A DNA stretch of 64,000 bases from Flavobacterium sp. TAB 87. Its GTDB lineage: Bacteria > Bacteroidota > Bacteroidia > Flavobacteriales > Flavobacteriaceae. The position numbers and the translations under genes are program-made. Where the stretch lies: contig NZ_LLWK01000033.1 of NCBI RefSeq assembly GCF_001529295.1, positions 1-64,000 on the forward strand, given 5' to 3'. A model generated the notes under the pieces. The model worked only from the letters and a program-made list of their open reading frames with translations. It was not told the DNA's origin and searched no databases. Each line of letters starts with the position of its first letter. Position 1 is the first letter of the stretch. Of this stretch, positions 5,994 through 56,443 are shown in pieces.

Positions 5994-5996
5994 AAC

Positions 5997-6653
5997 ATGT
6001 ATAAAAAAGTTTTGGTCGCTGAAGATTTAGATACAATTTCTCTCACAGTTAAGCAAGCACTTGAATCTATAGATATTTCAAATATTGACGTAGCCAAATA
6101 TTGCGATGATGCTTTTCTAAAAATTAAAAAAGGAATTACAGATAATACTCCTTATGATTTACTGATTACTGACTTGTCCTTTAAAAAAGACCATCGTGAA
6201 ACTAACTTACATTCGGGAGAAGACCTACTTGAAGCTGTGAAAAAAATTCAACCCGATATAAAAACAATTGTTTTTTCAATCGAAGACAAATCATATTTAA
6301 TTTCGAAATTACATACCCAGTTGAAAATTGATGCCTATGTAATGAAGGGACGAAATAGTATTGAGAATTTAAAGCAAACAGTACATAAATTATACCATCA
6401 AAAGGAAATAAAAGTAACACTAGCTAAGGGATCTATTGGATTAATTGAAATTGAACGGTACGACGTATCGTTGCTAAAACTACTCGCTAACGGACTTAGC
6501 ATTCAAGAGATAAGCAGTGAATTCAATAGACAAAATTGTATCCCAAACAGCACGAGTAGTATTGAAAAAAAGATCAATAAACTAAAGATTTACTTTAAAG
6601 CCACCAATAATGTCCATTTGATTGCATTAACAAAAGACCTAGGAATAATCTAA
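5997..6653 (+). CDS. Response regulator, receiver plus LuxR-like HTH
   Basis: A receiver domain (about 1-125) with acidic pocket E9-D10 and phosphoacceptor D59 in LLITDLSF is followed by a helix-turn-helix region with LLKLLANGLSIQEISSEF (about 158-175). The C-terminal half is a weak match to the LuxR/FixJ class. It starts three bases after the kinase stop, so the pair is almost certainly co-expressed. Target genes are unknown. Confidence 0.85.
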   Translation: MYKKVLVAEDLDTISLTVKQALESIDISNIDVAKYCDDAFLKIKKGITDNTPYDLLITDLSFKKDHRETNLHSGEDLLEAVKKIQPDIKTIVFSIEDKSYLISKLHTQLKIDAYVMKGRNSIENLKQTVHKLYHQKEIKVTLAKGSIGLIEIERYDVSLLKLLANGLSIQEISSEFNRQNCIPNSTSSIEKKINKLKIYFKATNNVHLIALTKDLGII

Positions 6654-6705
6654 AAAAATTTACGCACCTTACGGTTTCCCGTAAAAAAAAACCAGTTGCG
6701 AGTGA

Positions 6706-6713
6706 TATGTTTG
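6706..6713 (+). promoter_or_regulatory. Promoter box of the small membrane protein gene
   Basis: TATGTTTG matches TAnnTTTG. The expected transcript start falls at the first ATG (6721), so the second ATG at 6730 may be the real start. Confidence 0.5.
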
Positions 6714-6720
6714 CAAAAAC

Positions 6721-6978
6721 ATGTTGATTATGCGTTTCAAAAATACACTATTCAAAAGATCATTACGTAAAATAGCCAATAAATTAAAGACTGAAAAATC
6801 GAAAGTAGTTTTAAAAACCATACTACTAACTTTTATTTTATCTTATGCTACTGCATTAATTTGTGCTAAAACAGGAATAATTGAAATCGAATGGCAGTTA
6901 TTATTTGTACCTGCGATAGTAGTTTTACAAATTATAATTATAGTGACTGCGTTTAAAGATCGTTATAAAAAAATATAA
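6721..6978 (+). CDS. Small predicted membrane protein
   Basis: Not recognised. The basic N-terminal stretch (about 1-30) is followed by two hydrophobic segments (about 31-50 and 58-78) and a basic tail, consistent with two membrane helices and both ends in the cytoplasm. ATG codons at 6721 and 6730 are both possible starts; the second fits the promoter better. It converges with the next gene with 8 bases between stops. Confidence 0.65.
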   Translation: MLIMRFKNTLFKRSLRKIANKLKTEKSKVVLKTILLTFILSYATALICAKTGIIEIEWQLLFVPAIVVLQIIIIVTAFKDRYKKI

Positions 6979-6986
6979 AATAAAAA

Positions 6987-8249
6987 TTAAGTCTTCTGAT
7001 TCTTCTTGCGAGCAGCAGGAAATAATACATTATTTAAAATCAAACGATATCCGGGAGAATTGGGGTGCAAATCTAAAACAGTTGGAGGATCCCCAACTTT
7101 ATGCTGAAAATCTTCAGGATCATGTCCACCAAAGAAAGTAAACATTCCTTTTCCTTTTTGACCATGAATGTAACGCGCCTCGCCATTAAGTTCACAAGTT
7201 CCCATAACTAATACATTTGATTTCACTAGATCAGAATTAAATGAAGTTGTCTGTCCCATAAATCCTTTTACTAACTGGGTGTGGTTTTGACAAAGCATAC
7301 TCGGAATAGCATCCCATTTTGCTGAGAACTCCATTAAAGTAAAATAATCTTTTTCCATCGGGATTCTGCGCTGTAATGTCATGTCAATATTCGAAAACTC
7401 ATATTGTTCAGGCCGTCTTTCTAAGGTAAAATCTTTAAAAGCAAAACTATTCTGAAAATTTAATTTTGATTGATAGTTGGGCTCACTTGCGTCTCCATCA
7501 AACATTGCTTCGCAAATATCTACTCCATCTGCAGCTAATGCTATGTCAAAACTATCCGTCGCAGAACACATGGCAAACATAAATCCACCACCAATTACAA
7601 AGTCTCTAATTTTTTTAGCAACAGCTCCTTTTTCATGTGCAACTTTGGAGTATCCTAAATTTTTAGCGAGTATTTCTGCAGCAGCTTTTTGTTCAATATA
7701 CCAAGGGATATTTTTATATGCAGAATAAAATTTACCATATTGTCCTGTAAAATCTTCATGATGTAGGTGCAACCAATCATACATTAATAATTGGTCACTT
7801 AAGACTTCTGAATCGTACACAGGTGTAAAAGGAATTTCAGCGTAAGTTAAAACCAACGTAACAGCATCGTCCCACGGCTGTTTTCCTTGCGGCGTGTATA
7901 CTGCAATTTTTGGTGCTTTTTCTAAAATAATTGTTTCCATGTTTTGAGATGGACTCGCAATTTCTTCTAAAATTAAATTAACTTGGCTATCGCTCAAAAT
8001 TTCATAGCTTACTCCTCTAATTTGGCATTCTTTCCGAATCTCTTCAGAATCTGGCAATAAAAAAGAGCCCCCACGATAATTAAGTAACCAACTTGCTTTG
8101 TACTGGTTGTTCAAACACCAATAAGTGATTCCGTACGCTTTTAGATGATTTTGTTGTGAAGACTCATCCATAGGTAATAACACAAAAGAAGCGCTTACTT
8201 TTAAGGAGCAAAAAAACAAAAATAAATAGAAGTAAAGACGTAATGACAT
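6987..8249 (-). CDS. Exported protein of the family often labelled asparagine synthetase B
   Basis: A signal peptide (about 1-21, ending SLKVSA) precedes SFVLLPMDESSQQNHLKAYG, which recurs in a Bacteroidota family that databases tend to call asparagine synthetase B. I see neither the N-terminal catalytic cysteine of an Ntn glutaminase nor an ATP-pyrophosphatase motif, so that label looks wrong. The middle (about 150-250) contains VIGGGFMFAMC, reminiscent of ThuA-like or class I amidotransferase folds. Function unknown. It has its own promoter at 8269-8276. Confidence 0.75.
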   Translation of the reverse strand: MSLRLYFYLFLFFCSLKVSASFVLLPMDESSQQNHLKAYGITYWCLNNQYKASWLLNYRGGSFLLPDSEEIRKECQIRGVSYEILSDSQVNLILEEIASPSQNMETIILEKAPKIAVYTPQGKQPWDDAVTLVLTYAEIPFTPVYDSEVLSDQLLMYDWLHLHHEDFTGQYGKFYSAYKNIPWYIEQKAAAEILAKNLGYSKVAHEKGAVAKKIRDFVIGGGFMFAMCSATDSFDIALAADGVDICEAMFDGDASEPNYQSKLNFQNSFAFKDFTLERRPEQYEFSNIDMTLQRRIPMEKDYFTLMEFSAKWDAIPSMLCQNHTQLVKGFMGQTTSFNSDLVKSNVLVMGTCELNGEARYIHGQKGKGMFTFFGGHDPEDFQHKVGDPPTVLDLHPNSPGYRLILNNVLFPAARKKNQKT

Positions 8250-8597: not shown

Positions 8598-9263
8598 TTA
8601 CATGTCAATTAAAGCCAACCTATTTTGAATGGCAAAAACTACCAGTCCAGCAATATTTTTAGACTCGGTTTTTAACAATAGATTCGTTCGATGCCCCTCG
8701 ACGGTTCTAGGACTAATAAAAAGAATTTCGGCGATTTGAGCTGTATTTTTCTGTTCGCAAATCAATTGCAATACTTCAATTTCTCGGGGAGATAAAAAAG
8801 CTGCATCTAGTTCGGACTTTGCATTTTTTTTCATCAATTCTATTTCCTTCAAAATTTTTAATACTTTTTCGTTATAATAAAAACCTTTATCTGCAACCTG
8901 TCGTATTGCATAAAGTAATTCTTCTGGTTTTGCGTTCTTGAGAACAAATGCAGCAGCTCCTACATCAATCATATTGGCTACAAAAGAATGCGAATCATAA
9001 CTTGTTAACGCAATAATTTTAGTATTAGGATATTTTTTGTGTAAAATTTTGGTAGTTTCAACGCCATTAAGCACGGGCATCTTAAGATCAGTAAGAATTG
9101 CATCTGGTTGTTCATCCGTATTATCAAGATAATCTAGCAATTCTTTTCCGTTAGAAGCCTGAAAAACTACTTGAAAGTCTTCTTCTCGATCTAACATAAA
9201 TTTAATTCCTTGACGAAACAAAATTTCATCATCTACCAAAACAACTTTAATAACGTTTTTCAT
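8598..9263 (-). CDS. NarL/FixJ-family response regulator
   Basis: A receiver domain (about 5-125) with acidic pair D11-D12, phosphoacceptor D59 in AILTDLKMP and a conserved K near 109 is joined to a LuxR-type HTH (about 155-215) containing LSPREIEVLQLI and SPRTVEGHR. Length 221 is normal. It lies just downstream of a matching histidine kinase (start at 10206), so the two form a NarX/NarL-like pair. Targets unknown. Confidence 0.93.
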   Translation of the reverse strand: MKNVIKVVLVDDEILFRQGIKFMLDREEDFQVVFQASNGKELLDYLDNTDEQPDAILTDLKMPVLNGVETTKILHKKYPNTKIIALTSYDSHSFVANMIDVGAAAFVLKNAKPEELLYAIRQVADKGFYYNEKVLKILKEIELMKKNAKSELDAAFLSPREIEVLQLICEQKNTAQIAEILFISPRTVEGHRTNLLLKTESKNIAGLVVFAIQNRLALIDM

Positions 9264-30346: not shown

Positions 30347-30381
30347 ACATCCGTCTTGTTGTATCGAGACGGATATTTTTT
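30347..30381 (+). terminator. Terminator after the FadL-like gene
   Basis: ATCCGTCT 30349-30356 pairs with AGACGGAT 30367-30374, then a T run. The structured repeat starts right behind it. Confidence 0.8.
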
Positions 30382-30382
30382 T

Positions 30383-30459
30383 AGCCCGGATGGAAGCGGC
30401 ATCCTTTTTGGCTCGCCCTTGCGAAACCAAAAAGATACAGTGAACAGCCGGATTAGCTC
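30383..30459 (+). repeat. Structured repeat element, copy 2
   Basis: Shares TAGCCC, AGCGGCATCC, GATACAG and TAGCTC with copy 1 (595-671). Hairpin arms CTTTTTGG 30404-30411 / CCAAAAAG 30427-30434, with an inner TCGC/GCGA stem, plus helix CCGG 30386-30389 / CCGG 30448-30451 and outer AGC/GCT. The arms differ from copy 1 but keep pairing. Confidence 0.65.
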
Positions 30460-44328: not shown

Positions 44329-44925
44329 TTAGAACTCCTTTTTATTAAGCAAAATTCTTTTTTTTACTTTACTCAAAAACTCGTGCGAAATTCCCAAATA
44401 CGCGGCAATTTGATGCTGTGCTATTCTTTGCGACAATGTCGGATACCGTTCATTAAAATCTAAATATCTCTTATCTGCATTTTTATGAAGCATACTAATT
44501 ATTCGCAATTGCATGGATGCTAACGATTTTTGATTCATTATTCGGAACAGCTTTTCTACTTTCGGAATATCTTCGTACAATTGCTCTTTTGCAGCTTTAC
44601 TAATTGTTAATACCACTGAATCTTCTAATGCTTGAATATTTAGTTTTGACATTTGACCTGAAACAAAGCTTCCGACATCCAAAATCCACCAATCTTCAAT
44701 AGCAAAATACAGTATGTGCTCCTTAATATTTTCACCTTGATAAAAAATCTTAAAACAACCTTCAATTACGTAACTTTCAAATTCACAAACCTCGCCTTGT
44801 TTTAAAATAATAGTATTTTTTTCTATTTTCTGAAGAGAATAAAAAGAAGTAAAATGTGCCAATTCGTCTTCAGATAAGTCAACGTATTTTAAAATATTTT
44901 CTTGAAAAGAAGTATATATAATCAT
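44329..44925 (-). CDS. Crp/Fnr-family transcriptional regulator
   Basis: A cNMP-binding beta-roll (about 25-125) and a winged helix with HQIAAYLGISHEFLSKVKKR. It lacks FNR cluster cysteines. It lies 81 bases upstream of the GlcG/HIUase cluster on the same strand, and resembles the regulator at 20358, so it is the likely local controller. Confidence 0.9.
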   Translation of the reverse strand: MIIYTSFQENILKYVDLSEDELAHFTSFYSLQKIEKNTIILKQGEVCEFESYVIEGCFKIFYQGENIKEHILYFAIEDWWILDVGSFVSGQMSKLNIQALEDSVVLTISKAAKEQLYEDIPKVEKLFRIMNQKSLASMQLRIISMLHKNADKRYLDFNERYPTLSQRIAQHQIAAYLGISHEFLSKVKKRILLNKKEF

Positions 44926-45367: not shown

Positions 45368-45403
45368 TACTTTTGTTTATTAAATTTCCATAAATGATGA
45401 ACA
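45368..45403 (+). promoter_or_regulatory. Promoter and putative operator of the MerR regulator
   Basis: The -7 box TACTTTTG (45368-45375) overlaps an inverted repeat TGTTTAT (45374-45380) - N16 - ATGAACA (45397-45403), 6 of 7 bases symmetrical. It has the same spacing as the perfect repeats before crtI and at 55471-55500, and its right half covers the start codon region, suggesting autoregulation. Confidence 0.55.
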
Positions 45404-46293
45404 ATATAAAAAGTGTTTTCAGTATTAAAGACTTAGAGAATCTCTCTGGTATTAAAGCACATACTATACGTATTTGGGAAAAAAGATACAACATCTTAGA
45501 ACCTATGCGAACTGACACTAATATTCGTTTGTATGATATTGCCAGTCTTCAAAAATTACTAAATATCACTTTACTGCATGAGTACGGCTATAAAATTTCT
45601 AAAATAGCTACTTACGCACCAGAAAATATTCCAATTTTAGTGCGTGAAATCATTTCGAATAAAAACGCAAAAAATCATGCCATCAGCGCCTTCAAAATGG
45701 CAATGATGAATTTTGATCAAGAATTGTTTTTTAACACTTTTAATTGGTTAATTGCCGAGAAAACATTCAAAGAAGTCTTTAACGAGGTATTTATTCCGCT
45801 ATTAAACGAATTGGGTTTACTATGGCAGTCCCACACTATAACTCCAGCTCACGAGCATTTTATAAGTTATTTGATTAAGCAAAAATTATTAATCAATACC
45901 GAGAAACTTCAAGTTTTACCTCCTAGAAATACGTCTAAAGTCTTTGTTCTTTCGCTGCCTTTAAACGAGATTCACGAATTAGGATTGATGTACTTGCAAT
46001 ACGAGGTATTGCTATTAGGATATAAAAGTATCTATTTAGGGGAAAGTATGCCAATAGAAAACCTTAAAGATTTAAGAAAGCATTTTGAATCAATTGTTTT
46101 TATATCTTACATGACCGTGCAACCCGATCCTAACATAGTCAACGAGTATGTACAACAGATGAGTGACGAATTGCTGGGAAATACAAACGAAATTTGGCTC
46201 ATTGGTAAAATGACCGCTCATTTAGAAATCAAAAATTTAAACTCACGAATTACTGCTTTTAAATCTATTGATGATTTAGTAGCTGCGATTTAG
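45394..46293 (+). CDS. MerR-family cobalamin-binding regulator, CarH/LitR type
   Basis: Likely light-responsive repressor of the carotenoid and photolyase genes. An N-terminal MerR winged helix (about 8-75: HTIRIWEKRYN) is followed by a helical bundle and a Rossmann-like B12 domain. The CarH signature Wx9EH is present (W144, E154, H155), and so is a cobalt-ligand motif ExHxxG at E192-H194-G197. The residue after the tryptophan is Gln145, where Thermus CarH has His132, so the light-state cobalt chemistry may differ. It lies just upstream of crtI. Confidence 0.88.
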   Translation: MMNNIKSVFSIKDLENLSGIKAHTIRIWEKRYNILEPMRTDTNIRLYDIASLQKLLNITLLHEYGYKISKIATYAPENIPILVREIISNKNAKNHAISAFKMAMMNFDQELFFNTFNWLIAEKTFKEVFNEVFIPLLNELGLLWQSHTITPAHEHFISYLIKQKLLINTEKLQVLPPRNTSKVFVLSLPLNEIHELGLMYLQYEVLLLGYKSIYLGESMPIENLKDLRKHFESIVFISYMTVQPDPNIVNEYVQQMSDELLGNTNEIWLIGKMTAHLEIKNLNSRITAFKSIDDLVAAI

Positions 46294-46297
46294 TTTT

Positions 46298-46329
46298 TTG
46301 TTTAATATTTTTATATATTTGTTAAACAA
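46298..46329 (+). promoter_or_regulatory. crtI promoter inside a perfect inverted repeat
   Basis: TTGTTTAA (46298-46305) - N16 - TTAAACAA (46322-46329). The -7 box TATATTTG (46314-46321) fills the right end of the spacer and the crtI ATG follows at 46330. A dimeric repressor on this site would cover the promoter. The half-site contains TAAACA, which fits the TnnACA core I recall for CarA/CarH-type operators. Confidence 0.6.
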
Positions 46330-47796
46330 ATGAAAAAAAATATATCTATAATAGGTTCTGGTTTTTCGTCGCTTTCAGCGGCATGTTATTTGGCTCAAGA
46401 TGGCTACGCCGTAACGGTTTATGAAAAAAACGATACCATTGGCGGTCGAGCCAGACAATTAAAAATTGAAGGCTTTACTTTTGACATGGGACCAAGTTGG
46501 TACTGGATGCCAGACGTTTTTGAACGTTTCTTTGCTGACTTTAATAAAAAGACATCCGATTATTATGAGTTAATTAAACTTAATCCTGCGTATCGTGTGT
46601 ATTACGGGGTGGATAATTTTATTAATATTGCTGATAATCTACCCGAAATAGCTGCAGTTTTTGAAAATTTAGAGCAAGGTAGTGGCCGTAAACTTGTTTC
46701 GTTTATGGAAGAAGCCAAACGCAACTATGATATCGCTATAAAAGACTTAGTATATCGTCCTGGTGAATCTATATTTGAACTTATTACACCAAAAACAGCT
46801 GCAAGAGTTGGACAGTTTTTTAGTAATATAAGTAAAGATGTTCGAAGTGAATTTAAAAATCCTAAACTTATCCAGATTTTGGAGTTTCCCGTGTTATTTC
46901 TTGGAGCCAAACCAAGTGACACGCCTTCGTTTTACAGTTTTATGAATTATGCCGATTTTGGTTTAGGTACATGGCATCCTAAAACAGGCATGCATGATGT
47001 TGTGCAAGCAATGACAACTCTCGCGCAGTCACTTGGAGTTGTTTTTCAAACCAATGCCAATATCGAAAAGATTGTGGTCGATAATAATTCGGCGAAAGCC
47101 TTGGTTATTAACGGTAAGCGAATCGAATCTGATATTATTGTAAGTGGCGCTGATTACCATCATACCGAAACTTTATTAGATAAAGAATTTAGAATGTATT
47201 CTGAAAAATACTGGGATAGTCGCGTATTTGCTCCTTCTTCATTATTATTTTTTGTAGGTTTTGATAAAAAAATTGAATCACTATCGCATCATGCTTTGTT
47301 TTTTGATGTTGATTTTGATCAACACGCTGCAGATATTTATGACAGTCCGAAATGGCCAGACAATCCTTTATTTTATGCTAATTTTCCTTCTAAGACCGAT
47401 GCAACTGCTGCACCAGAAGGAATGGAAAGTGCTTTTTTCCTGATTCCTTTAGCTCCTGGAATTAATGACACTGAAGCACTTAGATCAGAATACTTCGAAA
47501 AAATAATTACACGTTTCGAGCAAGTTACAGGCGAAGATATCCGAAAAAACATTATATTTAAAAAGTCGTTTTGCAAGAATGACTTTGTATCAGAGTACAA
47601 CTCATACAAAGGAAATGCATACGGCATGGCCAATACCTTATTACAAACCGCTTTTTTACGTCCTAAATTAAAAAGTAAAAAAGTTAAGAATCTCTATTTT
47701 ACAGGTCAATTAACAGTTCCTGGTCCAGGAGTTCCACCCGCACTAATTTCAGGAAAATTAGTGGCACAACTAATCCAAAAAAACTCAAAAAGATGA
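46330..47796 (+). CDS. crtI: Phytoene desaturase
   Basis: Converts phytoene to lycopene in four FAD-dependent steps. The N-terminal dinucleotide motif is GSGFSSLSAACYLAQDGYAV, followed by EKNDTIGGRARQ and MGPSWYWMPDVFE; the C-terminal bacterial-carotenoid dehydrogenase signature is NLYFTGQLTVPGPGVPPALI. 488 residues is normal. crtB overlaps its end by 4 bases (ATGA). Confidence 0.96.
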   Translation: MKKNISIIGSGFSSLSAACYLAQDGYAVTVYEKNDTIGGRARQLKIEGFTFDMGPSWYWMPDVFERFFADFNKKTSDYYELIKLNPAYRVYYGVDNFINIADNLPEIAAVFENLEQGSGRKLVSFMEEAKRNYDIAIKDLVYRPGESIFELITPKTAARVGQFFSNISKDVRSEFKNPKLIQILEFPVLFLGAKPSDTPSFYSFMNYADFGLGTWHPKTGMHDVVQAMTTLAQSLGVVFQTNANIEKIVVDNNSAKALVINGKRIESDIIVSGADYHHTETLLDKEFRMYSEKYWDSRVFAPSSLLFFVGFDKKIESLSHHALFFDVDFDQHAADIYDSPKWPDNPLFYANFPSKTDATAAPEGMESAFFLIPLAPGINDTEALRSEYFEKIITRFEQVTGEDIRKNIIFKKSFCKNDFVSEYNSYKGNAYGMANTLLQTAFLRPKLKSKKVKNLYFTGQLTVPGPGVPPALISGKLVAQLIQKNSKR

Positions 47797-48632
47797 AACA
47801 GTTATTTGATGATACCTCCTTTAAATGCAGCAAGCTAGTTACGCAAAGTTACAGTACTTCCTTTTCGCTAGCAGTCTACATGCTTGCACCAAGCATTCGC
47901 GAAGCGATTTATAGTATTTACGGGTTTGTTCGTTTTGCAGACGAAATTGTAGACTCTTTTCATGATTTTGACAAACAGGCATTGTTGGATGATTTTGAAG
48001 CAGAATATTACAAAGCATTTGCAAACGGAATTAGTTTAAACCCTATTTTAAATTCTTTTCAACAAACTGTAAGAGAATTTAATATTGGTGACGAATTAAT
48101 TCAGTCGTTCTTAAAAAGCATGAAAATGGATTTAATAAAATCCGATTACAATACCAAAGCAGAATACGACGATTACATTTATGGATCTGCTGATGTGGTG
48201 GGCTTAATGTGTTTAAAAGTATTCGTTGCTGGTCAACAAGAACGCTACGACAAGTTGAAACATGAAGCGATGCGACTTGGATCCGCTTTTCAAAAAGTGA
48301 ACTTCTTAAGAGATTTAAAAGATGACAATCTGGTACTGAACCGCAATTATTTTCCTGGGGTCGACTTAAATTCGTTTGATGATAATGCAAAAGCAATGAT
48401 TATTGCCGAAATTGAAGAAGACTTTAGAGTTGCGAAAGAAGGCATTAAAAAATTACCAATCGAAGCAAAATTCGGCGTTTATACAGCGTACGTTTACTAT
48501 CGAAAACTGCTTAGAAAACTAGAAAACACGCCTTCTCATGAAATTGGCAACACACGAATTCGAGTTTCTAATTATACTAAAGCAGGACTTTTAGCACAGT
48601 CTTTTGTTAGTTACAAATTAAAATTAGTGTAG
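47793..48632 (+). CDS. crtB: Phytoene synthase
   Basis: Joins two geranylgeranyl diphosphates to phytoene. Both aspartate-rich metal-binding motifs are visible: FADEIVDSF (DxxxD) and NFLRDLKDDN. 279 residues. The start overlaps the crtI stop, so the two are translationally coupled. Substrate chain length is not readable, but the CrtI/CrtZ context favours C40 carotenoids. Confidence 0.96.
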   Translation: MKQLFDDTSFKCSKLVTQSYSTSFSLAVYMLAPSIREAIYSIYGFVRFADEIVDSFHDFDKQALLDDFEAEYYKAFANGISLNPILNSFQQTVREFNIGDELIQSFLKSMKMDLIKSDYNTKAEYDDYIYGSADVVGLMCLKVFVAGQQERYDKLKHEAMRLGSAFQKVNFLRDLKDDNLVLNRNYFPGVDLNSFDDNAKAMIIAEIEEDFRVAKEGIKKLPIEAKFGVYTAYVYYRKLLRKLENTPSHEIGNTRIRVSNYTKAGLLAQSFVSYKLKLV

Positions 48633-48715
48633 GCTTTAAAATATACAAATACTACACTATTTTTAAAAATGAGATCTGGTCATAGCACTTGAATTATAAT
48701 TTTAATAAATATAAA

Positions 48716-49156
48716 ATGATTTTCTTCCTAATATTTCTTGGCGTTTTTCTTTTCATGGAATGTGTGACCTGGCTTACACACAAATATATCATGCACGGTT
48801 TGGGATGGTATTTCCATGCTGATCATCATCAGCCCAAATACGAGAACACTTTTGAGCGCAATGATGTGTTTTTTGTCATTTTTGCCGTTCCAAGCATTGT
48901 CTTGTTCTACTTTGGTGTTCAAGGCGGTTTCAATTACATGTTCTTTATTGCATGTGGCATCACTTTATACGGAATTTGCTATTTTTTAATTCACGATGTT
49001 CTAATTCACCAGCGCTTTAAATGGTTTAAACATACCAATAACAAGTACCTCATCGGACTTAGAAAAGCACACAAAGTGCACCACAAACATTTAGGCAAAC
49101 ACCACGGAGAATGCTTCGGAATGCTGTTTGTTCCTTTTAAATATTATAAAATATAA
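48716..49156 (+). CDS. crtZ: Beta-carotene hydroxylase
   Basis: A membrane non-haem di-iron enzyme that hydroxylates beta-carotene to zeaxanthin. The histidine clusters are HKYIMHG, HADHHQ, HDVLIHQR and HKVHHKHLGKHHGE. I chose the ATG at 48716 (146 residues), which puts the first membrane helix at the N-terminus; an in-frame TTG at 48689 adds nine polar residues. It belongs to the crtI-crtB transcript. The lycopene cyclase is not in this window. Confidence 0.94.
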   Translation: MIFFLIFLGVFLFMECVTWLTHKYIMHGLGWYFHADHHQPKYENTFERNDVFFVIFAVPSIVLFYFGVQGGFNYMFFIACGITLYGICYFLIHDVLIHQRFKWFKHTNNKYLIGLRKAHKVHHKHLGKHHGECFGMLFVPFKYYKI

Positions 49157-49195
49157 TTGTAATAGAATTATAATACAACAAAAAACCGCAGTTTA

Positions 49196-49657
49196 ATGAA
49201 ACTATATAAAAAAGAAAGCAAGCAATTAGTTGATGCCAGTCTCGAAGAGTGTTGGCATTTTTTTTCTGATCCGAGTAATTTACAAAAGATTACACCAGCA
49301 ACAATGGGTTTTCAAGTAACCGATTTTGATCAGAAAAAAATGTATCAAGGACAAATAATTGCCTACAAAATTTCGCCACTATTGGGAATAAAAATGAGTT
49401 GGGTTACCGAAATTACAACGGTTCGAGACAAAGAGTTTTTTATAGACGAGCAGCGTTTTGGCCCTTATTCTTTTTGGCATCACAAACATTATTTTGAAGA
49501 AACTCCACAAGGAACTTTGATGACTGATGTGGTGCACTACGGCGTTCCGCTAGGGTTTATCGGTCGAATAATGAACAGCCTTGTTATTGAGAAACAACTA
49601 GAAACAATCTTTAAATACCGCCATCAAAAAGTAGAACAGCTTTTTAATAAAAAATAA
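49196..49657 (+). CDS. SRPBCC-family ligand-binding-like protein
   Basis: A helix-grip domain with YKKESKQLVDASLEECWHFFSDPSNLQKITP and DVVHYGVPLGFIGRI, as in the SRPBCC group sometimes called cell division inhibitor. In some actinobacteria this domain is fused to TIGR01777 epimerases; here the TIGR01777 gene is separate at 55508 in the same island. Its stop overlaps the photolyase ATG by one base. Ligand unknown, possibly a lipid or carotenoid. Confidence 0.88.
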   Translation: MKLYKKESKQLVDASLEECWHFFSDPSNLQKITPATMGFQVTDFDQKKMYQGQIIAYKISPLLGIKMSWVTEITTVRDKEFFIDEQRFGPYSFWHHKHYFEETPQGTLMTDVVHYGVPLGFIGRIMNSLVIEKQLETIFKYRHQKVEQLFNKK

Positions 49658-50955
49658 TGAATACTATTCCTGTTACATTTTTTTGGTTTCGTCGTGACTT
49701 ACGCTTGGATGATAATATTGCTTTGTGGAACGCATTGAAATCTGATTTTCCGGTAATTCCACTATTTATTTTTGATGATGAAATTCTCGAGCAACTTCCA
49801 AAGGATGATGCTCGCGTAACTTTTATATATGAGAGTCTAGAGAAAATAAATTTGGAATTAACTGATTTTGAAAGTTCTCTTATAATCCGCAAAGGAAAAA
49901 CACATCAGGTCTGGTTTGACTTACTAGAAGAGTACGATATTGAAGAAGTTTATTTTAATAAAGATTATGAACCGTATGCTTTGCAACGAGATGCAGAAAT
50001 TTCAGCTTTGCTTTCATCAAATAAAGTAAAAGTTAGTGTTTTTAAAGACCACGTAATTTACGAAGAAAGCGAAATTACTAAAGCAGATGGTTTGCCTTAT
50101 ACCATTTATACCCCTTACAAAAATAAATGGGTACAAAAGTTTGAAACATTAAAACAGCAACCACTAGACGAATTAAAAAACAACAGTTCGAATTTCTACA
50201 AAAGCAATTTTAGTTTTCTAACGTTAGAATCTATTGGTTTTGTAAGAAGCTCGATTTCGGTAAGAGAGCACAATTTAAAGGGAGTTGCTACGTATGAAGA
50301 AACTAGAAATTTTCCTTCTTTAGATTCTACTACTTACTTGTCTCCACACTTACGTTTTGGCACTGTAAGCATTAGAAAACTTGCACACTGGGCTTCCCAT
50401 AAAAATGCTACCTTTTTAAACGAATTAGTTTGGAGAGAGTTTTTTATGCAGATATTATTTCATTTTCCCAATTCAGTCAATCATAATTTTAAATCGGCTT
50501 ATGATGGAATTCAATGGAGAAATAATCCTGAAGAATTTAAACTGTGGTGTGAGGGAAAAACGGGTTACCCAATGGTTGATGCAGGAATGCGTCAGTTAAA
50601 CGAAACAGGATACATGCACAATAGGGTACGAATGGTTGTAGCAAGTTTTTTATGTAAACATTTACTAATTAGTTGGCAATGGGGCGAAGCCTACTTTGCG
50701 GAAAAACTATTAGATTTTGAACTCGCTTCGAATGTAGGAAACTGGCAATGGGCAGCTGGAACGGGTTGTGATTCTGCGCCGTATTTCCGCGTTTTTAATC
50801 CTGAAATTCAACTTAAAAAATTTGATGCTAAAGGAGAATATGTCCGCACTTGGATATCTGAATTCGATTTGGGTTATGGAAAACCTATGGTAGAACATGC
50901 CATGGCAAGAGATCGTGCTTTAACCGCTTATAAAACTGGACTTCAACAGAAATAA
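49657..50955 (+). CDS. phr: Deoxyribodipyrimidine photolyase / cryptochrome
   Basis: Repairs UV-induced cyclobutane dimers using blue light. N-terminal antenna domain (VTFFWFRRDLRLDDNIALWNAL) and FAD domain with TGYPMVDAGMRQLNETGYMHNRVRM and the tryptophan-rich NVGNWQWAAGTGCDSAPYFRVFNP. 432 residues, class I CPD type by appearance. It is the last gene of the crt-phr transcript, consistent with shared light control. Confidence 0.95.
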   Translation: MNTIPVTFFWFRRDLRLDDNIALWNALKSDFPVIPLFIFDDEILEQLPKDDARVTFIYESLEKINLELTDFESSLIIRKGKTHQVWFDLLEEYDIEEVYFNKDYEPYALQRDAEISALLSSNKVKVSVFKDHVIYEESEITKADGLPYTIYTPYKNKWVQKFETLKQQPLDELKNNSSNFYKSNFSFLTLESIGFVRSSISVREHNLKGVATYEETRNFPSLDSTTYLSPHLRFGTVSIRKLAHWASHKNATFLNELVWREFFMQILFHFPNSVNHNFKSAYDGIQWRNNPEEFKLWCEGKTGYPMVDAGMRQLNETGYMHNRVRMVVASFLCKHLLISWQWGEAYFAEKLLDFELASNVGNWQWAAGTGCDSAPYFRVFNPEIQLKKFDAKGEYVRTWISEFDLGYGKPMVEHAMARDRALTAYKTGLQQK

Positions 50956-51054
50956 GTTTTAAAATTAGAAGTTGATTATTTTATTATTTTGTCTGTATAA
51001 TTGTGAAAATAAATTGAATTAAAGTCACATATTTAATTTATAATTCTAAAATAT

Positions 51055-52479
51055 TTACTTTTTATCGATTAAACTGTTGAGCATTCCTTTAAAAATGAAT
51101 CCGTGAAAAGGAAGCACCGAGTACCAGTATAATTTTCCCCAAAAACCTTTGGGTCTAAATGTCGCTGATTGGTATAAATTATTGCGTATTATTTTAAATT
51201 CCAACCAAGCTTCGCCTGGTAATTTCATTTCTGCAAATAAAATCAATTTTCCTTCTTCTTTGTTGGCATATAAAACGCGCCAGAAATCGAGTGCATCTCC
51301 AGAGTGAATTTCGTTTCTATTAGTTCGGCCACGTCTCGATCCCACACCGCCGTAAAGTTTGTCAATAAAGCCTCTAAGTTGCCACAACCAATCGCCATAG
51401 TACCAGCCAGATTCCCCACCAATAGACCAGATTTTATTAATCGTATAGTCGTAATCAATTATTTCGCGCTTTCTTCTGTCTATAAAACAATCCTTTTTAG
51501 GCACTTTTATAAAACCAGAAAGACTAGTATTGAAACGGCCACTAATCAAGGAATCTTTCCAGCTAGAAGCGATCATATTGTCATCAATTTTGACCAACGC
51601 TTTCGCAATTGCTTCTTTGTACCCAATGGGATGAATAGCCAGTAATTTATTGATGTCATTGTTTCGACAAACTACCTCAACTTTCATACTACTTACCAAC
51701 GCAGAGGCCAATTTGTATGACGTTGACGTAACGAAATACAGCCAATATGATGATAATTTGGGAGTCATTATTGGGACCGTAATAATGTATCTTTTTAATT
51801 TTTTTGCAGCTGCAAAACCAAGCAGCATCTCTTTGTATGTGAGGATATCAGGACCTCCAATATCAAAACTTTTATTAAAAGTTGCTTCGACGCCCATACT
51901 TTTATACAAAAACTCCAACACATCGGTAACAGCAATGGGTTGACATCTGGTATTTAACCATTTGGGCGTGATCATTACTGGTAACTTTTCTACCAAATCG
52001 CGAATAATCTCAAAAGACGCACTACCAGAACCTACTATAATTCCCGCACGTAGCGTAGTGACTGCAAAAGGAGATTTATTTAAAACCGCTTCTACTTGCT
52101 TGCGCGATGCCAGATGTTTCGAAAGCTTTTCTTCATTAACAATTCCACTTAAATAAAGTACTTGCTGTACTGTAGTGTCAGATAATCGTTTCACAAAATT
52201 TTCAGCAGATAATTTCTCTAACTCATCATAATTAGAATCTGAGCCCGCCATAGAGTGAATTAAATAATAGGCAAAATCAATGTCCTCTGGAATAACACTT
52301 AACGTTTCCTCTTTTAAAAAATCAACTTCAATAACTTCAACATTCGAAGCCAATTCTGGAGGACAAAAGAAACGATTTTTATCTCTCACACAGCAAACCA
52401 CGTGATGACCATTCAATACCAAAATTGGTAACAAACGTTTTCCGATGTAACCCGTAGCGCCAGTTAAGAGAATTTTCAT
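51055..52479 (-). CDS. NAD(P)-binding SDR with DUF2867 domain
   Basis: N-terminal extended-SDR Rossmann domain (LLTGATGYIGKRLLPILVLNGHHVVCCVRD) and a C-terminal DUF2867 domain (ILFAEMKLPGEAWLEFKI and WYSVLPFHGFIFKGML). 474 residues is usual for this two-domain form. Relatives recur beside photolyases and CarH/LitR-like regulators. Reaction unknown; it is the last gene of the minus-strand operon. Confidence 0.88.
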   Translation of the reverse strand: MKILLTGATGYIGKRLLPILVLNGHHVVCCVRDKNRFFCPPELASNVEVIEVDFLKEETLSVIPEDIDFAYYLIHSMAGSDSNYDELEKLSAENFVKRLSDTTVQQVLYLSGIVNEEKLSKHLASRKQVEAVLNKSPFAVTTLRAGIIVGSGSASFEIIRDLVEKLPVMITPKWLNTRCQPIAVTDVLEFLYKSMGVEATFNKSFDIGGPDILTYKEMLLGFAAAKKLKRYIITVPIMTPKLSSYWLYFVTSTSYKLASALVSSMKVEVVCRNNDINKLLAIHPIGYKEAIAKALVKIDDNMIASSWKDSLISGRFNTSLSGFIKVPKKDCFIDRRKREIIDYDYTINKIWSIGGESGWYYGDWLWQLRGFIDKLYGGVGSRRGRTNRNEIHSGDALDFWRVLYANKEEGKLILFAEMKLPGEAWLEFKIIRNNLYQSATFRPKGFWGKLYWYSVLPFHGFIFKGMLNSLIDKK

Positions 52480-52483
52480 AGTG

Positions 52484-53167
52484 TTATATTTTAAAACTTA
52501 CCATTCCGTAATCCATTTGAAAAACTTGACCTGAAATCGATTTTGCTGAATCAGAAATTAAATAATCAGCCAAACCAGCCACTTCTTCAGGTTGTAAATA
52601 GTTCTTCAGCGGATGTCTTTCCTTCATTAACAATTTCATTCTATCGTTTCTTAAAATAGACGAAGACAATTCAGTCTCCGTAATAGTTGGGGCAATAGCG
52701 TTTACTCGCACAGTTGAAGCCAACTCTGCACCTAATGTACGAACTAACCCTTCAACTCCTGCTTTAGCTGCAGCAATGCTAGCATGAAAAGGCATTCCGA
52801 GTTTGACCGCAACGGTGCTAAATAGTAATATATTTGCATTTGGAGATTTTTTAAGTGGTGGCAAAAAATGTTGAATCGCACGAACAGCTCCAATTACATT
52901 TATTTCGTAATCGTTTCTAAAGGTATCCAAAGTCAAATTCAGAATCGGCTTTAAAGTAATTGAACCTGGGCAATAAATAAGCGTATCCACTTCTTCAATA
53001 GTTGGTAATTCGTCTTCCAAAATATTAACCGAATAATGTTTCAAATTAAAATTTGAAATTTCAGGTTGAGAACGACTTAAATTATGAACATAATTATCCT
53101 GAACTTGTTTTTCTAGAATCGCCTTTCCGATTCCTTTGCTTCCTCCTACAATTACTATATTTTTCAT
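52484..53167 (-). CDS. Short-chain dehydrogenase-like protein lacking the catalytic Tyr
   Basis: The Rossmann core shows the SDR GGSKGIG nucleotide loop and the strand with Ser117 (LLFSTVAV). At the YxxxK position the sequence is IAAAK, so the catalytic tyrosine is Ile131 while Lys135 is kept. Folding and cofactor binding look intact, but ordinary SDR chemistry should fail. Relatives in light-linked clusters often read SIAAAK, from memory. 227 residues. Confidence 0.88.
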   Translation of the reverse strand: MKNIVIVGGSKGIGKAILEKQVQDNYVHNLSRSQPEISNFNLKHYSVNILEDELPTIEEVDTLIYCPGSITLKPILNLTLDTFRNDYEINVIGAVRAIQHFLPPLKKSPNANILLFSTVAVKLGMPFHASIAAAKAGVEGLVRTLGAELASTVRVNAIAPTITETELSSSILRNDRMKLLMKERHPLKNYLQPEEVAGLADYLISDSAKSISGQVFQMDYGMVSFKI

Positions 53168-53177
53168 CTACTACTTT

Positions 53178-53462
53178 TTATTGCACTCGTTTACTAATTT
53201 TATTTCCCGAAATTGCCCTTTGTCTAGAGCATTTAAAACGTCCCAAAGTAAAAACTCTTTTTTGTTCGTGCTTAGCAGCTCGACCTTGTACTCTTTTTCT
53301 CCAACGTTTAAAACTTGACTCCTTTAATTCGGTTCGCATTAAGCTTATCACTTCTTGCTCAGAGATCGAAAATTGAAACTTTATGGCTTCAAATGGCGTA
53401 CGATCTTCCCACGCCATTTCAATAATTCGATCCGTTTCTATGGTTGTAAAAACTGGAATCAT
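53178..53462 (-). CDS. TIGR03643 (DUF2805) small protein
   Basis: 94 residues with IETDRIIEMAWEDRTPFEAIKFQFSISEQEVISLMR as a helix-turn-helix-like core and a very basic C-terminus (KRWRKRVQGRAAKHEQKR). I recognise it as the TIGR03643 family, often seen near photolyase or cryptochrome genes. Role unknown, possibly nucleic acid binding. It lies between the ABC1 kinase and SDR genes with no gap to the former. Confidence 0.88.
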   Translation of the reverse strand: MIPVFTTIETDRIIEMAWEDRTPFEAIKFQFSISEQEVISLMRTELKESSFKRWRKRVQGRAAKHEQKRVFTLGRFKCSRQRAISGNKISKRVQ

Positions 53463-54773
53463 CTATTTTTTATATTGTGTGAAATTATTGACTTTGATTT
53501 TAGCTTTTAGATCAAACATTAAATTATACAATCCGAAGAATGTCCTGTTCATATAAATGAAATGCTTAGAACCCCGATTTCCATTCATTTTTTTCAAATT
53601 GGTATCTTTTGAAAAACGTTCTCCTAATTTACCAATATTTTCGAAGAAACCTTCGTTCGAAAAATCAAATTCTTCTTCCTGAAAAGGTTGTGTAAAAAGT
53701 GACAACAAATCGTAAAACATCTCAGTGAAATAAACTATTTCTTCAGCCGAGTCATCTTCACGTAAAATCTCCAATTCAAATAACTTTTTATTGAATAGTT
53801 CTTTATCATCAATGACTTGTTTATTAATCAGTTCAAAATAAGGAACATAAAAGTCATTCGGAATAGCTTTCATACACCCAAAATCCAAAGCGATTAATTG
53901 GTGCTTGTCATTTACTAAAAAATTTCCCGGATGTGGATCTGCATGTACTTTTCGTAAAATGTGAACTTGATACATGTAAAAATCCCAAAGCGCCTGACCC
54001 ACTTGATCGCGCTGTTGTTGATTTGGATTGGTAACAACATACTCTGAAAGATGTTTACCCGTCATCCAATCCATGGTAATTATTTTATCCGAAGAATATT
54101 CAGGGTAATAATTAGGGAAAAGTAAATTAGGAATGTGCGTGCAAGCATCTACTACTTCTTGGCTCTGCTCCAATTCTAATAAGTAATTAGTCTCTTCAAT
54201 TAATTTATCTTCTACTTCCTTAAAGTATTTATCAGAATCTTTTCCTTGCAAATTAAACATTCGAATTGCAATTGGTTTTACCATCGCTAGATCTGACGAA
54301 ATACTATTAGCAACACCCGGATACTGAATTTTTACGGCTAATTTTTTACCATCTTTTTCTGCCAAATGTACTTGCCCAATGCTTGCTGCGTTCACAGAAT
54401 TGGCATTAAACGTATCAAAAATTTCATAAGGTGTTTTCCCAAAATTATTTTTAAAGGTCTTTAAAACTAAGGGAGCTGACAACGGCGGAACAGAAAACTG
54501 CGAAAGTGAAAATTTTTCTACATACGCTTGTGGCAAGAAGTTCTTATCCATGCTTAACATCTGCGCTACTTTTAAAGCACTCCCTTTTAGGTTTTTTAAA
54601 CCATCGTAAATGTCTTCGGCATTATTTTCGTTGAGTTTATCGCGTGAAAGTTCTGGATTAACGATTTTCTCTCCGTAATATTTGATGTAATTCACTCCAA
54701 TTTTAGCACCCGTTTGCACCAATTTGCTTGCGCGTTCTATTTTGGAAGTTGGTATATAATCGATACTTTTCAT
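53463..54773 (-). CDS. ABC1/UbiB-family atypical kinase
   Basis: 436 residues with the UbiB/COQ8 hallmarks: alanine-rich loop NAASIGQVHLAEKDG, lysine in KIQYPGV, catalytic HADPHPGNFLVND and metal-binding ALDFGCMK. The signature KxGQ is KVAQ here (K68-Q71), with Gly changed to Ala. UbiB-like proteins act in quinone or isoprenoid lipid pathways, which fits a carotenoid island. The gene shares one base with the TetR gene. Confidence 0.92.
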   Translation of the reverse strand: MKSIDYIPTSKIERASKLVQTGAKIGVNYIKYYGEKIVNPELSRDKLNENNAEDIYDGLKNLKGSALKVAQMLSMDKNFLPQAYVEKFSLSQFSVPPLSAPLVLKTFKNNFGKTPYEIFDTFNANSVNAASIGQVHLAEKDGKKLAVKIQYPGVANSISSDLAMVKPIAIRMFNLQGKDSDKYFKEVEDKLIEETNYLLELEQSQEVVDACTHIPNLLFPNYYPEYSSDKIITMDWMTGKHLSEYVVTNPNQQQRDQVGQALWDFYMYQVHILRKVHADPHPGNFLVNDKHQLIALDFGCMKAIPNDFYVPYFELINKQVIDDKELFNKKLFELEILREDDSAEEIVYFTEMFYDLLSLFTQPFQEEEFDFSNEGFFENIGKLGERFSKDTNLKKMNGNRGSKHFIYMNRTFFGLYNLMFDLKAKIKVNNFTQYKK

Positions 54774-55432
54774 TATTTATTATAGATTTTTTCTTTAAAA
54801 ATAAATTTTCCTAAATCAAGCAAGTGATTTAATGGAGCTATGCGCATAAGTTCAAATGTGGTAGTCACAGATTTTTCGATTAAAATGTCTGTTTTCTCAA
54901 AAGCTGCAGACGAATCGTCCATCCAAAATTTTATCGTATACATTAATTGTAACCAGGCACTTTCTTGAATGGCTTTGTCTTGAAAATTTTGCAACTTTTC
55001 TTGAGAAATTCGGTACTCGTCGGTTAAAATTTCTTTAGTGTACTTCTTAAAACTTTCACGGAGCAAAGTCAACTGCGTTAAATTTTTAAGGGGATTTGGA
55101 TTGCTTTTTAATGTTTGCATAACGTAACTTCTGTTTGCAGATAACAATTCGAAGAAAGTAAAGTAGAAGCTAAGCATTTTATCTTTCATTCCGTAAGTGT
55201 TATAATCTGCATGCGCGTGCAATAGATTAATGGTGTTTACAAAAAATAATTGAAAAACTTCTTTTTCTAATCCTTCTAATGTTCCGAAAAACGCGTAAAA
55301 TTCGCTTTCTTCAAACTTGTTTTCCTTCGCAAAAAGATAAACAGATTTGGGTGCTTTTCCATGTTCTAAAACATAATTCATATATAAAGACACGATCGCG
55401 TCTTTGGTAATTTTTGCTTTTTGAGTTGCCAT
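54773..55432 (-). CDS. TetR-family-like regulator
   Basis: 219 residues; the first 60 read as a divergent TetR HTH (AIVSLYMNYVLEHGKAPKSVYLFAKENKFEESEFYAFF) and the rest is helical, as in the ligand-binding half. It is the first gene of the minus-strand operon and divergent from the TIGR01777 gene, so it may control both. The HTH match is weak. Confidence 0.78.
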   Translation of the reverse strand: MATQKAKITKDAIVSLYMNYVLEHGKAPKSVYLFAKENKFEESEFYAFFGTLEGLEKEVFQLFFVNTINLLHAHADYNTYGMKDKMLSFYFTFFELLSANRSYVMQTLKSNPNPLKNLTQLTLLRESFKKYTKEILTDEYRISQEKLQNFQDKAIQESAWLQLMYTIKFWMDDSSAAFEKTDILIEKSVTTTFELMRIAPLNHLLDLGKFIFKEKIYNK

Positions 55433-55457
55433 TATTTACTTTTTTTGAATTTGAGTA

Positions 55458-55500
55458 TAAAGATACAGAATGTTTAAGTATATTTACATAACGTTAAACA
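55458..55500. promoter_or_regulatory. Divergent promoter region with a perfect inverted repeat
   Basis: TGTTTAA (55471-55477) - N16 - TTAAACA (55494-55500), the same repeat and spacing as at the crtI promoter. A plus-strand box TATATTTA (55479-55486) lies in the spacer, and a minus-strand box TATCTTTA (55458-55465) lies beside the left half; both differ from TAnnTTTG at the last base. Candidate shared operator for the TetR operon and the TIGR01777 gene. Confidence 0.6.
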
Positions 55501-55507
55501 AAAAGTA

Positions 55508-56443
55508 ATGTTAAAAAACACAACAGTGAAAAATAAAAAAAACATATTACTAACAGGCGGTACTGGATTTATAGGCAATCACTTAACGAACTTGCTGTTA
55601 GATGAAGGATTCTCGGTTAGCATTCTGACGCGCAGTAAAAGAAAAAACACGAGAGAAGTAACCTACTACACTTGGGATGTACAGAAGAAAGAGATCGAAA
55701 ACGAGGCAATTTTAAGAGCCGATTACATCATTCACTTAGCTGGAACCAGTATCGCTGGTGCACGTTGGACCGAAAAAAGAAAAAAAGAAATTGTAGCTAG
55801 TCGCGAAGACTCTTTGCAATTGCTGTATAATAGTCTGCAGAAAAACAATAAAATTTTAGACGGATTTATTTCTGCTTCTGCCGTTGGTATTTACGGCGCT
55901 TATACTTCAGAACAAATATGCCACGAAGAAAATCCTCCTGCTACTGATTTTTTAGGTCAAGTGTGTGAAAAATGGGAAGCAGCGGCTGATACAATTGCCG
56001 CAATGGGCGTTAGGACTGTAAAAATTAGAACTGGATTAGTTTTAGGTAAAGATGGTGGTTTTTTAAAACCACTAACTCCTGTTTTTAAATATGGTTTTGG
56101 TGCAGCTTTGGGTTCTGGTAAACAATATATGCCATGGATACATCTAGAAGATTTGTCCCGCATATATGTTCATGCGATCAAAACTAATACAATGAGCGGC
56201 CCTTACAATGCAGCAGTGGGAGATTCTAATACTAATACAAATTTCTCTAAAAAAATGTGCGCCGTCTACGGCTATAAAATGTGGTTGCCAAATGTGCCTG
56301 CTTTTATTTTGAAGTTAGCTTTGGGCGAAATGAGTGATTTATTGCTGAAAGGACAGCGCGTTTCATCTCAAAAAATCGAAAACACTGATTTTATCTTTCG
56401 TTATAAATCGATCGAAGAAGCGCTGAGAGATTCCTTATCGTAA
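55508..56443 (+). CDS. TIGR01777-family epimerase-like oxidoreductase
   Basis: Extended SDR with ILLTGGTGFIGNHLTNLLLDEG, HLAGTSIAGARWTEKRKKEI and the catalytic serine-tyrosine pair in SASAVGIYG. 311 residues. TIGR01777 proteins have no settled reaction. It lies across a putative operator from the TetR operon and may work with the SRPBCC protein at 49196, to which homologues are fused elsewhere. Confidence 0.92.
   Translation: MLKNTTVKNKKNILLTGGTGFIGNHLTNLLLDEGFSVSILTRSKRKNTREVTYYTWDVQKKEIENEAILRADYIIHLAGTSIAGARWTEKRKKEIVASREDSLQLLYNSLQKNNKILDGFISASAVGIYGAYTSEQICHEENPPATDFLGQVCEKWEAAADTIAAMGVRTVKIRTGLVLGKDGGFLKPLTPVFKYGFGAALGSGKQYMPWIHLEDLSRIYVHAIKTNTMSGPYNAAVGDSNTNTNFSKKMCAVYGYKMWLPNVPAFILKLALGEMSDLLLKGQRVSSQKIENTDFIFRYKSIEEALRDSLS

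Follow-up and report, generated by a model that had tools for sequence, protein, structure and literature searches.

A 30-bp inverted dyad as candidate operator of a CarH-like MerR protein in Flavobacterium sp. TAB 87 and related Flavobacteriales

The first 64,000 nt of contig NZ_LLWK01000033.1 from Flavobacterium sp. TAB 87 (RefSeq assembly GCF_001529295.1; this whole stretch is referred to as the window) contain a gene for a MerR-type regulator with a B12-binding part, here called merR, and three promoter regions carrying the same inverted repeat. Sequence comparison suggests that this repeat, a 30-bp dyad TGTnnA-N18-TnnACA, serves as operator for the CarH-like MerR protein encoded next to it. 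The protein would bind the dyad together with adenosylcobalamin (AdoCbl) in the dark and be released by light, and we give this reading a probability of roughly 0.85. The dyads, their promoter boxes and the regulator are positioned as follows.

45374..45403, no strand assigned: dyad at the merR (carH-like) promoter, TGTTTAT-N16-ATGAACA, right arm over the start codon
45368..45375, + strand: TAnnTTTG promoter box of merR, TACTTTTG, fused with the left dyad arm
46298..46329, no strand assigned: dyad at the crtI promoter, TTGTTTAA-N16-TTAAACAA, immediately 5' of the ATG
46314..46321, + strand: promoter box TATATTTG within the spacer of the crtI dyad
55471..55500, no strand assigned: dyad of the divergent TetR/TIGR01777 promoter region
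55479..55486: promoter-like box TATATTTA in the spacer of the third dyad, one base off TAnnTTTG
45394..46293, + strand: CarH-like MerR/B12-binding regulator, the likely dyad binder

A first-pass annotation of this DNA had described an inverted repeat with a 16-base spacer at these three promoters and no other such pair in the window, and both statements held when the degenerate pattern TGTTYAW-N16-WTRAACA was searched for. Three exact matches were found, at 45374-45403, 46299-46328 and 55471-55500, and no fourth elsewhere in the window, far above chance as dinucleotide shuffles of the window (n = 100) gave a mean of 0.05 matches and never three. Only the crtI and TetR/TIGR01777 sites match TGTTTAA-N16-TTAAACA with zero mismatches, the merR site having three. 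The scan of the genome and its relatives that had been put forward as a check also came out in favour of the repeat, with six sites for the degenerate pattern in the whole genome (3.83 Mb) compared to two for a backwards control, and 169 perfect sites in 60 same-genus genomes compared to 19 for the backwards pattern, an approximately ninefold enrichment. When analysing the 80 nearest named MerR loci (1.46 Mb; the best 80% identical; 77 titled Flavobacterium or flavobacterial group and the other three metagenome bins with other names), the exact pair TGTTTAA/TTAAACA was found in 33 copies at N16, distributed over 29 of the loci, against 0 or 1 copies at any other spacing between 0 and 40.

Weak matches showed no such excess. 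Within the window 17 matches with up to three mismatches were found against 24 expected, so weak matches alone are uninformative, and in the whole genome 103 sites with up to two mismatches stand against 162 in the control; exact or orthology-supported sites alone were therefore used. The genome count is what speaks for the dyads being chance AT-rich palindromes, a view that is hardly credible since the exact sites are enriched in the genus, keep a single spacing and are found at the same promoters, and for these sites it is refuted by the spacing scan together with the conservation at orthologous promoters. Four near-sites of the own genome (C38:12648, C38:155665, C38:810232 and C38:353732) are located inside open reading frames (ORFs) and were taken as chance, and from a fifth, C18:10258, no listed ORF runs. 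A one-mismatch dyad at C32:138376 (L202, 1501-1530) is situated 50 nt before a 148-aa ORF.

Each of the three window dyads touches a box that matches, or nearly matches, the Bacteroidota promoter type TAnnTTTG. This agrees with the earlier claim that all of them overlap promoter boxes, the third box being the one that deviates from the consensus. Among 75 perfect sites elsewhere a TAnnTTTG box is placed at dyad position 15 or 16 in 17 cases (15 of them at 16), compared to a mean of 0.4 with shuffled spacers. The dyad recurs at the merR, crtI and TetR/TIGR01777 promoters of relatives, where the first-pass annotation had proposed to look for it. For merR, the best dyad is found at position -23 in 72 of the 80 related loci, with up to two mismatches to the perfect arms in 58, and the six fixed columns of its TAnnTTTG box are conserved to 91–99% in 67 loci (the 80 minus near-duplicates, used for column counts). 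Codon 2 of merR, lying under the right arm, is AAC in 77 of the 80 loci while AAC makes up 33% of the Asn codons in these genes, and therefore the DNA itself seems to be constrained. The crtI dyad has up to two mismatches in 63 of the 80 loci and ends one base 5' of the ATG in 61 of these 63. Upstream of TetR, 31 loci with the gene were available, 12 with less than 120 bases upstream were skipped, and in all 19 readable ones a dyad with up to two mismatches is located at -66 to -69; other spacings from 10 to 22 reach this level in only 0 to 2 of the 19.

The MerR protein of the window combines an N-terminal MerR winged-helix DNA-binding domain (Pfam MerR_1, E 2.8e-13) with a C-terminal helical bundle (B12-binding_2) and a Rossmann B12 domain. 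Its predicted structure has a mean pLDDT of 89.5 and CarH as the first PDB match. The cobalamin motifs Wx9EH and ExHxxG can be identified by eye, and when searched for in relatives as Wx9EH and [DE]xHxxG both are present in 79 of the 80 near relatives and in all 41 genus loci. Judged by the NCBIfam score cut-off, the protein is a relative of CarH and not the named CarH equivalog; NCBIfam MlrA gives a weak match to its DNA-binding domain. Genome G187 holds two MerR/B12 paralogues, on contigs C3 and C4, that are 72% and 49% identical to the window protein.

The neighbouring CarH-like MerR protein is very likely the binder of the dyad, as the sites follow the regulator. Their number follows the presence of MerR, the 51 MerR-positive genomes holding more sites than the nine MerR-negative ones, and their half-site changes with the MerR type. 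In four families (f6, f8, f11 and f15) the MerR DNA-binding domain reads RTWEN or RTWEK and its own upstream region carries TGTATA-N18-TATACA, while in the group of the window it reads RIWEK or similar and the arms are TGTTTA/TAAACA. A survey of merR upstream regions, in which duplicates of the upstream sequence and regions with less than 50 bases upstream were skipped, revealed a TATACA core in 22 of 28 RTWE-type regions and none of the other kind, compared to a TAAACA core in 62 and TATACA in 0 of 104 regions of other types. The same exchange is seen in whole-genome counts of 44 genomes, hand-chosen among those with a MerR already examined. This covariation is the strongest evidence for MerR as the binder, though the counts are not independent trials because the rows share common descent and a single swap event may underlie them. 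Neighbours of the TATACA dyads were tallied for 69 sites, 63 of the 96 from RTWE-type genomes together with six from RIWEK-like genomes, and comprise merR (11), fasciclin (10), DUF2452 (7), SDR (7), proteorhodopsin (5) and crtI (3), with 31 unassigned including all six from RIWEK-like genomes. TATACA dyads are also situated before genes read by eye as PAS, Bax1-like, YceI and pterin-synthase (L353, L354, L389, L401 and others).

The genes behind the window dyads, and the regulator gene on the other side of merR, are arranged as follows.

46330..50955, + strand: likely operon of crtI, crtB, a crtZ-like gene (by eye), SRPBCC and photolyase, gaps -4, 56, 39 and -1 nt, behind the crtI dyad
51055..55432, - strand: likely operon of TetR, an ABC1/UbiB-like kinase, TIGR03643, SDR and DUF2867-SDR, gaps -1, 0, 10 and 4 nt, behind the third dyad
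54773-55432, - strand: TetR-family protein
55508..56443, + strand: TIGR01777 oxidoreductase, divergent from TetR, behind the third dyad
44329-44925, - strand: cyclic-nucleotide-domain (CRP/FNR-type) regulator, adjoining merR

Within the likely crtI operon no family match was found for 48689-49156. The proposal of one regulon joining the carotenoid, photolyase and divergent genes is supported by the conserved sites at their promoters, and the regulon appears to be wider. In this genome it is predicted to comprise merR, the crtI-to-photolyase operon, the TetR operon, TIGR01777, a DUF2452 operon, a fasciclin gene and a probable B12-uptake ABC operon. On another contig a perfect site is located 92 nt before DUF2452, with genes for a flavin reductase, for a cryptochrome/photolyase and for a DASH cryptochrome behind it. 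A one-mismatch site is found 43 nt before the fasciclin gene. In relatives a cluster of fasciclin-like genes (one member family-checked) follows 13 perfect sites. When the flanking genes were tallied for the 75 perfect sites listed, from 21 genomes and among more counted, with representatives of most families checked, crtI was found at 10 sites, TetR at 10, TIGR01777 at 8, TIGR03643/DUF2805 at 7, SDR, SRPBCC and flavin reductase at 5 each, proteorhodopsin with Blh at 5 (4 loci), DUF2452 at 4, GTP cyclohydrolase at 3 and MsrA at 2; further, unassigned clusters include an ABC ATPase at 5 and two uncharacterised families at 5 each. In 15 of the 19 same-genus proteorhodopsin loci the 250 bp upstream contain a dyad with no more than one mismatch, and the proteorhodopsin/Blh divergent promoters of Flavobacterium (among L212-L240) often contain two dyads, about 43–45 bp apart. 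With all 29 proteorhodopsin loci included, an exact TGTTTA/TAAACA pair at N18 is found in 11 loci, compared to 0–2 at other spacings from 8 to 28, and when one mismatch is allowed the numbers are 16 and 0–7. In two genomes of another family (G073 and G084; L090 and L091) a perfect dyad lies near merR between two divergent genes, which by eye resemble those of an ECF sigma factor and of a PAS-domain protein.

The B12-uptake operon was assigned from a degenerate site, C33:68804, situated 48 nt upstream of a periplasmic binding protein/FecCD set that is followed further downstream by an ATPase. Its neighbours include a TonB receptor preceded by a cobalamin riboswitch as well as CobU, BluB-CobT, CobS and CobC, and from these genes the transporter probably carries B12, while none of the B12-transporter models scored above its own cut-off on it. 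In the comparison of this btuF-type promoter 30 of the 47 genomes with a match were taken as loci: among the 15 genomes whose protein is most similar, 12 contain the dyad (10 at -77 to -80 and two at -151 and -158), compared to none of the next 15. A spacing of 18 leads in these upstream regions, with 12 against 0–2 at others, but the conservation extends beyond the dyad arms, the spacer also being conserved in part. The site itself matched no Rfam family, the cobalamin riboswitch being located elsewhere in the cluster. In the B12 salvage cluster adjoining the window (L008) the riboswitch before the TonB receptor was placed at 8988-9189 and a BluB-CobT fusion gene at 5883-7559.

In the mechanism we propose, AdoCbl-bound MerR would bind the dyads in the dark and cover the promoter, and light would break the cofactor and make MerR let go. 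The dyad extends over the start site or start codon at crtI and merR as well as over the TAnnTTTG box, which fits a repressor, and from this overlap and the precedent of CarH we infer that MerR represses rather than activates. The trigger would be AdoCbl photolysis, judging from the conserved motifs and the predicted fold. Given the gene set of the predicted regulon, light would switch on pigment, DNA repair and defence against photo-oxidation, and would also raise the uptake of the cofactor of the sensor itself. According to PMC8156234 CarH loses its Ado group irreversibly, so with a B12-uptake operon among its members the regulon would replenish the chromophore in the light. The sign of regulation is less sure at btuF because there the dyad is located upstream of the box.

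A number of observations weigh against the operator proposal. The btuF dyad is placed differently from the others, upstream of a TAccTTTG box, and the crtI promoter has four or more mismatches, or lacks a crtI start, in 14 of the 80 related loci and three mismatches in another three. In the 12 of these loci with a crtI start but at least four mismatches, the distance between merR and crtI is at most 30 nt in seven and 37–43 nt in five; in those seven crtI could be under the merR site. The Pfam match in the B12 part of MerR covers the helical B12-binding_2 domain only, and the NCBIfam CarH equivalog model scores 73.2 bits against a cut-off of 400. A triple 11-bp direct repeat of the CarH kind was found in 0 of 74 dyads with 30 bp flanks; two tandem TnnACA occur among them with a period of 11 in 9, 8 in 14, 13 in 30 and 12 in 2, and with periods of 9, 10 and 14 in none. 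Among merR upstream regions a core dyad is absent from 40 of the 104 of other type and from 6 of the 28 of RTWE type, with another core in 4 of the 104 (two regions count twice), while in merR regions from other orders of the class a perfect dyad is found in only 2 of 20. Two MerR-negative genomes retain sites, G003 (89% complete) two perfect sites and the btuF dyad, and G043 (93% complete) a one-mismatch dyad at proteorhodopsin; here the gene was possibly missed by the assembly. The RTWE/RIWE swap possibly goes back to a single ancient event in one clade, and a third candidate half-site type (RKWES MerR, TAGACA) was rejected, its dyad being found at the own merR promoter only and genome-wide no more often than the control.

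As the third dyad occupies the usual place of a TetR operator, in the TetR/TIGR01777 divergent region, the dyad could be the operator of the TetR-family protein, controlling its own divergent promoter and the carotenoid genes. MerR-positive genomes with TetR (45 genomes) do hold a mean of 3.4 sites compared to 1.67 for the six without, but all six of the latter, same-genus genomes without a TetR match, keep one or two perfect sites, and the sole same-genus genome with TetR and no MerR match has one site, inside a long ORF. There is moreover no TetR match in the sampled genomes of f6, f8, f11 and f15, yet dyads with the changed half-site are found there at merR and other targets, and this makes a TetR operator very improbable. 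Only a slight probability can likewise be given to a CRP/FNR-type regulator, or another unseen global regulator, binding the dyad with MerR acting elsewhere; the gene of such a regulator adjoins merR, but CRP-type sites are shorter. LdrP, a CRP/FNR activator, serves a light-inducible cluster in Thermus (title cited in PMC7064467). A regulator of this type would nevertheless explain neither the half-site change following the MerR DNA-binding domain nor the link to the presence of merR.

MerR might also bind the dyad but answer the B12 level, oxygen or a partner protein instead of sensing light through AdoCbl. The class II LitR protein PmlR2, as described in PMC9758184, has retained a B12_2-like domain although a LOV protein controls it. 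The targets here include a probable B12-uptake operon, and one or both cobalamin motifs are lacking in 16 of 59 relatives from other families of the order (one of them a short read of a gene with an inner stop). With both motifs intact in nearly all near relatives and every genus locus, and with many light-protection genes among the targets, this alternative appears rather unlikely, and a light-sensing MerR is preferred.

When comparing the proposed operator with known systems, the earlier remark that TAAACA fits the TnnACA pattern of CarA/CarH stands as far as the core is concerned, while the arrangement differs. CarH operators of Thermus thermophilus and Bacillus megaterium consist of three or four tandem 11-bp direct repeats nnnnTnnACAn (PMC9304148, PMC8156234). 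Shared with these CarH proteins are the MerR domain together with an AdoCbl-binding domain, the Wx9EH motif, the TnnACA core, an operator over promoter boxes and carotenoid targets; unlike their tandem repeats, two half-sites here face outwards in a 30-bp dyad. For CarA an inverted repeat was once proposed but later footprints favour direct repeats, and the account of CarA/CarH in Myxococcales, with a light-induced crt operon under B12-type MerR repressors, concerns carotenoid genes and not proteorhodopsin and B12 uptake as targets (PMC9304148). Class II LitR proteins (PplR1 and PmlR2 of Pseudomonas) belong to the LitR/CarH family and share the B12_2-like domain, symmetric half-sites of TnnACA type and a similar light-induced set of photolyase, cryptochrome, folE and short-chain dehydrogenase, but their consensus T(G/A)TACA-N12-TGTA(C/T)A spans 24 bp, compared to an outer span of 30 bp with N18 between six-base half-sites here, and the light sensor of PmlR2 is a separate LOV protein (PMC9758184). 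No operator of this N12 kind was found in the window, N18 being the enriched geometry. BluR and MlrA of Escherichia coli are also MerR-like regulators with half-sites at the promoter, TGTAC/GTACA at the -35 and spacer for BluR with GTACA also in the MlrA site, but BluR has other targets and is released by a separate blue-light protein, BluF (PMC3509220); no statement of a 30-bp N18 dyad for BluR/MlrA was found in the available parts of that paper.

Within the open-licence literature no CarH/LitR operator or proteorhodopsin regulator from this phylum was recognised by title and abstract, which is weak evidence of absence as only open-licence papers were covered. Nor is such an operator named in the available parts of a Chryseobacterium paper on light and carotenoids (PMC7064467), a review of light-regulated expression (PMC9614035) or a proteorhodopsin ecology paper (PMC5932025). 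The dyad is thus probably a new operator variant for a known kind of photoreceptor, with probable feedback on the supply of its own chromophore. Extended to the order, we hold it moderately probable that one B12 photoreceptor, with a 30-bp operator not described in the papers searched, acts as a light switch throughout the Flavobacteriales. It would control carotenoids, photolyases and proteorhodopsin together with the retinal enzyme, as well as the import of its own light-destroyed chromophore, and we hold it equally probable, as part of this reading, that its half-site changed from TAAACA to TATACA regulon-wide upon a change in the DNA-binding domain. With a named operator and a named sensor the induction of proteorhodopsin and light defence in flavobacteria becomes directly testable, and a regulon-wide swap of half-sites following the MerR DNA-binding domain would be a natural experiment on how regulators evolve. 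It would also be unusual for a photoreceptor to feed back on the supply of its own vitamin.

Apart from these features, three Flavo-1 RNAs scoring above the Rfam gathering score are found within 80 kb, two in the window at 591-668 and 30379-30458 and one in L008 at 1076-1154.

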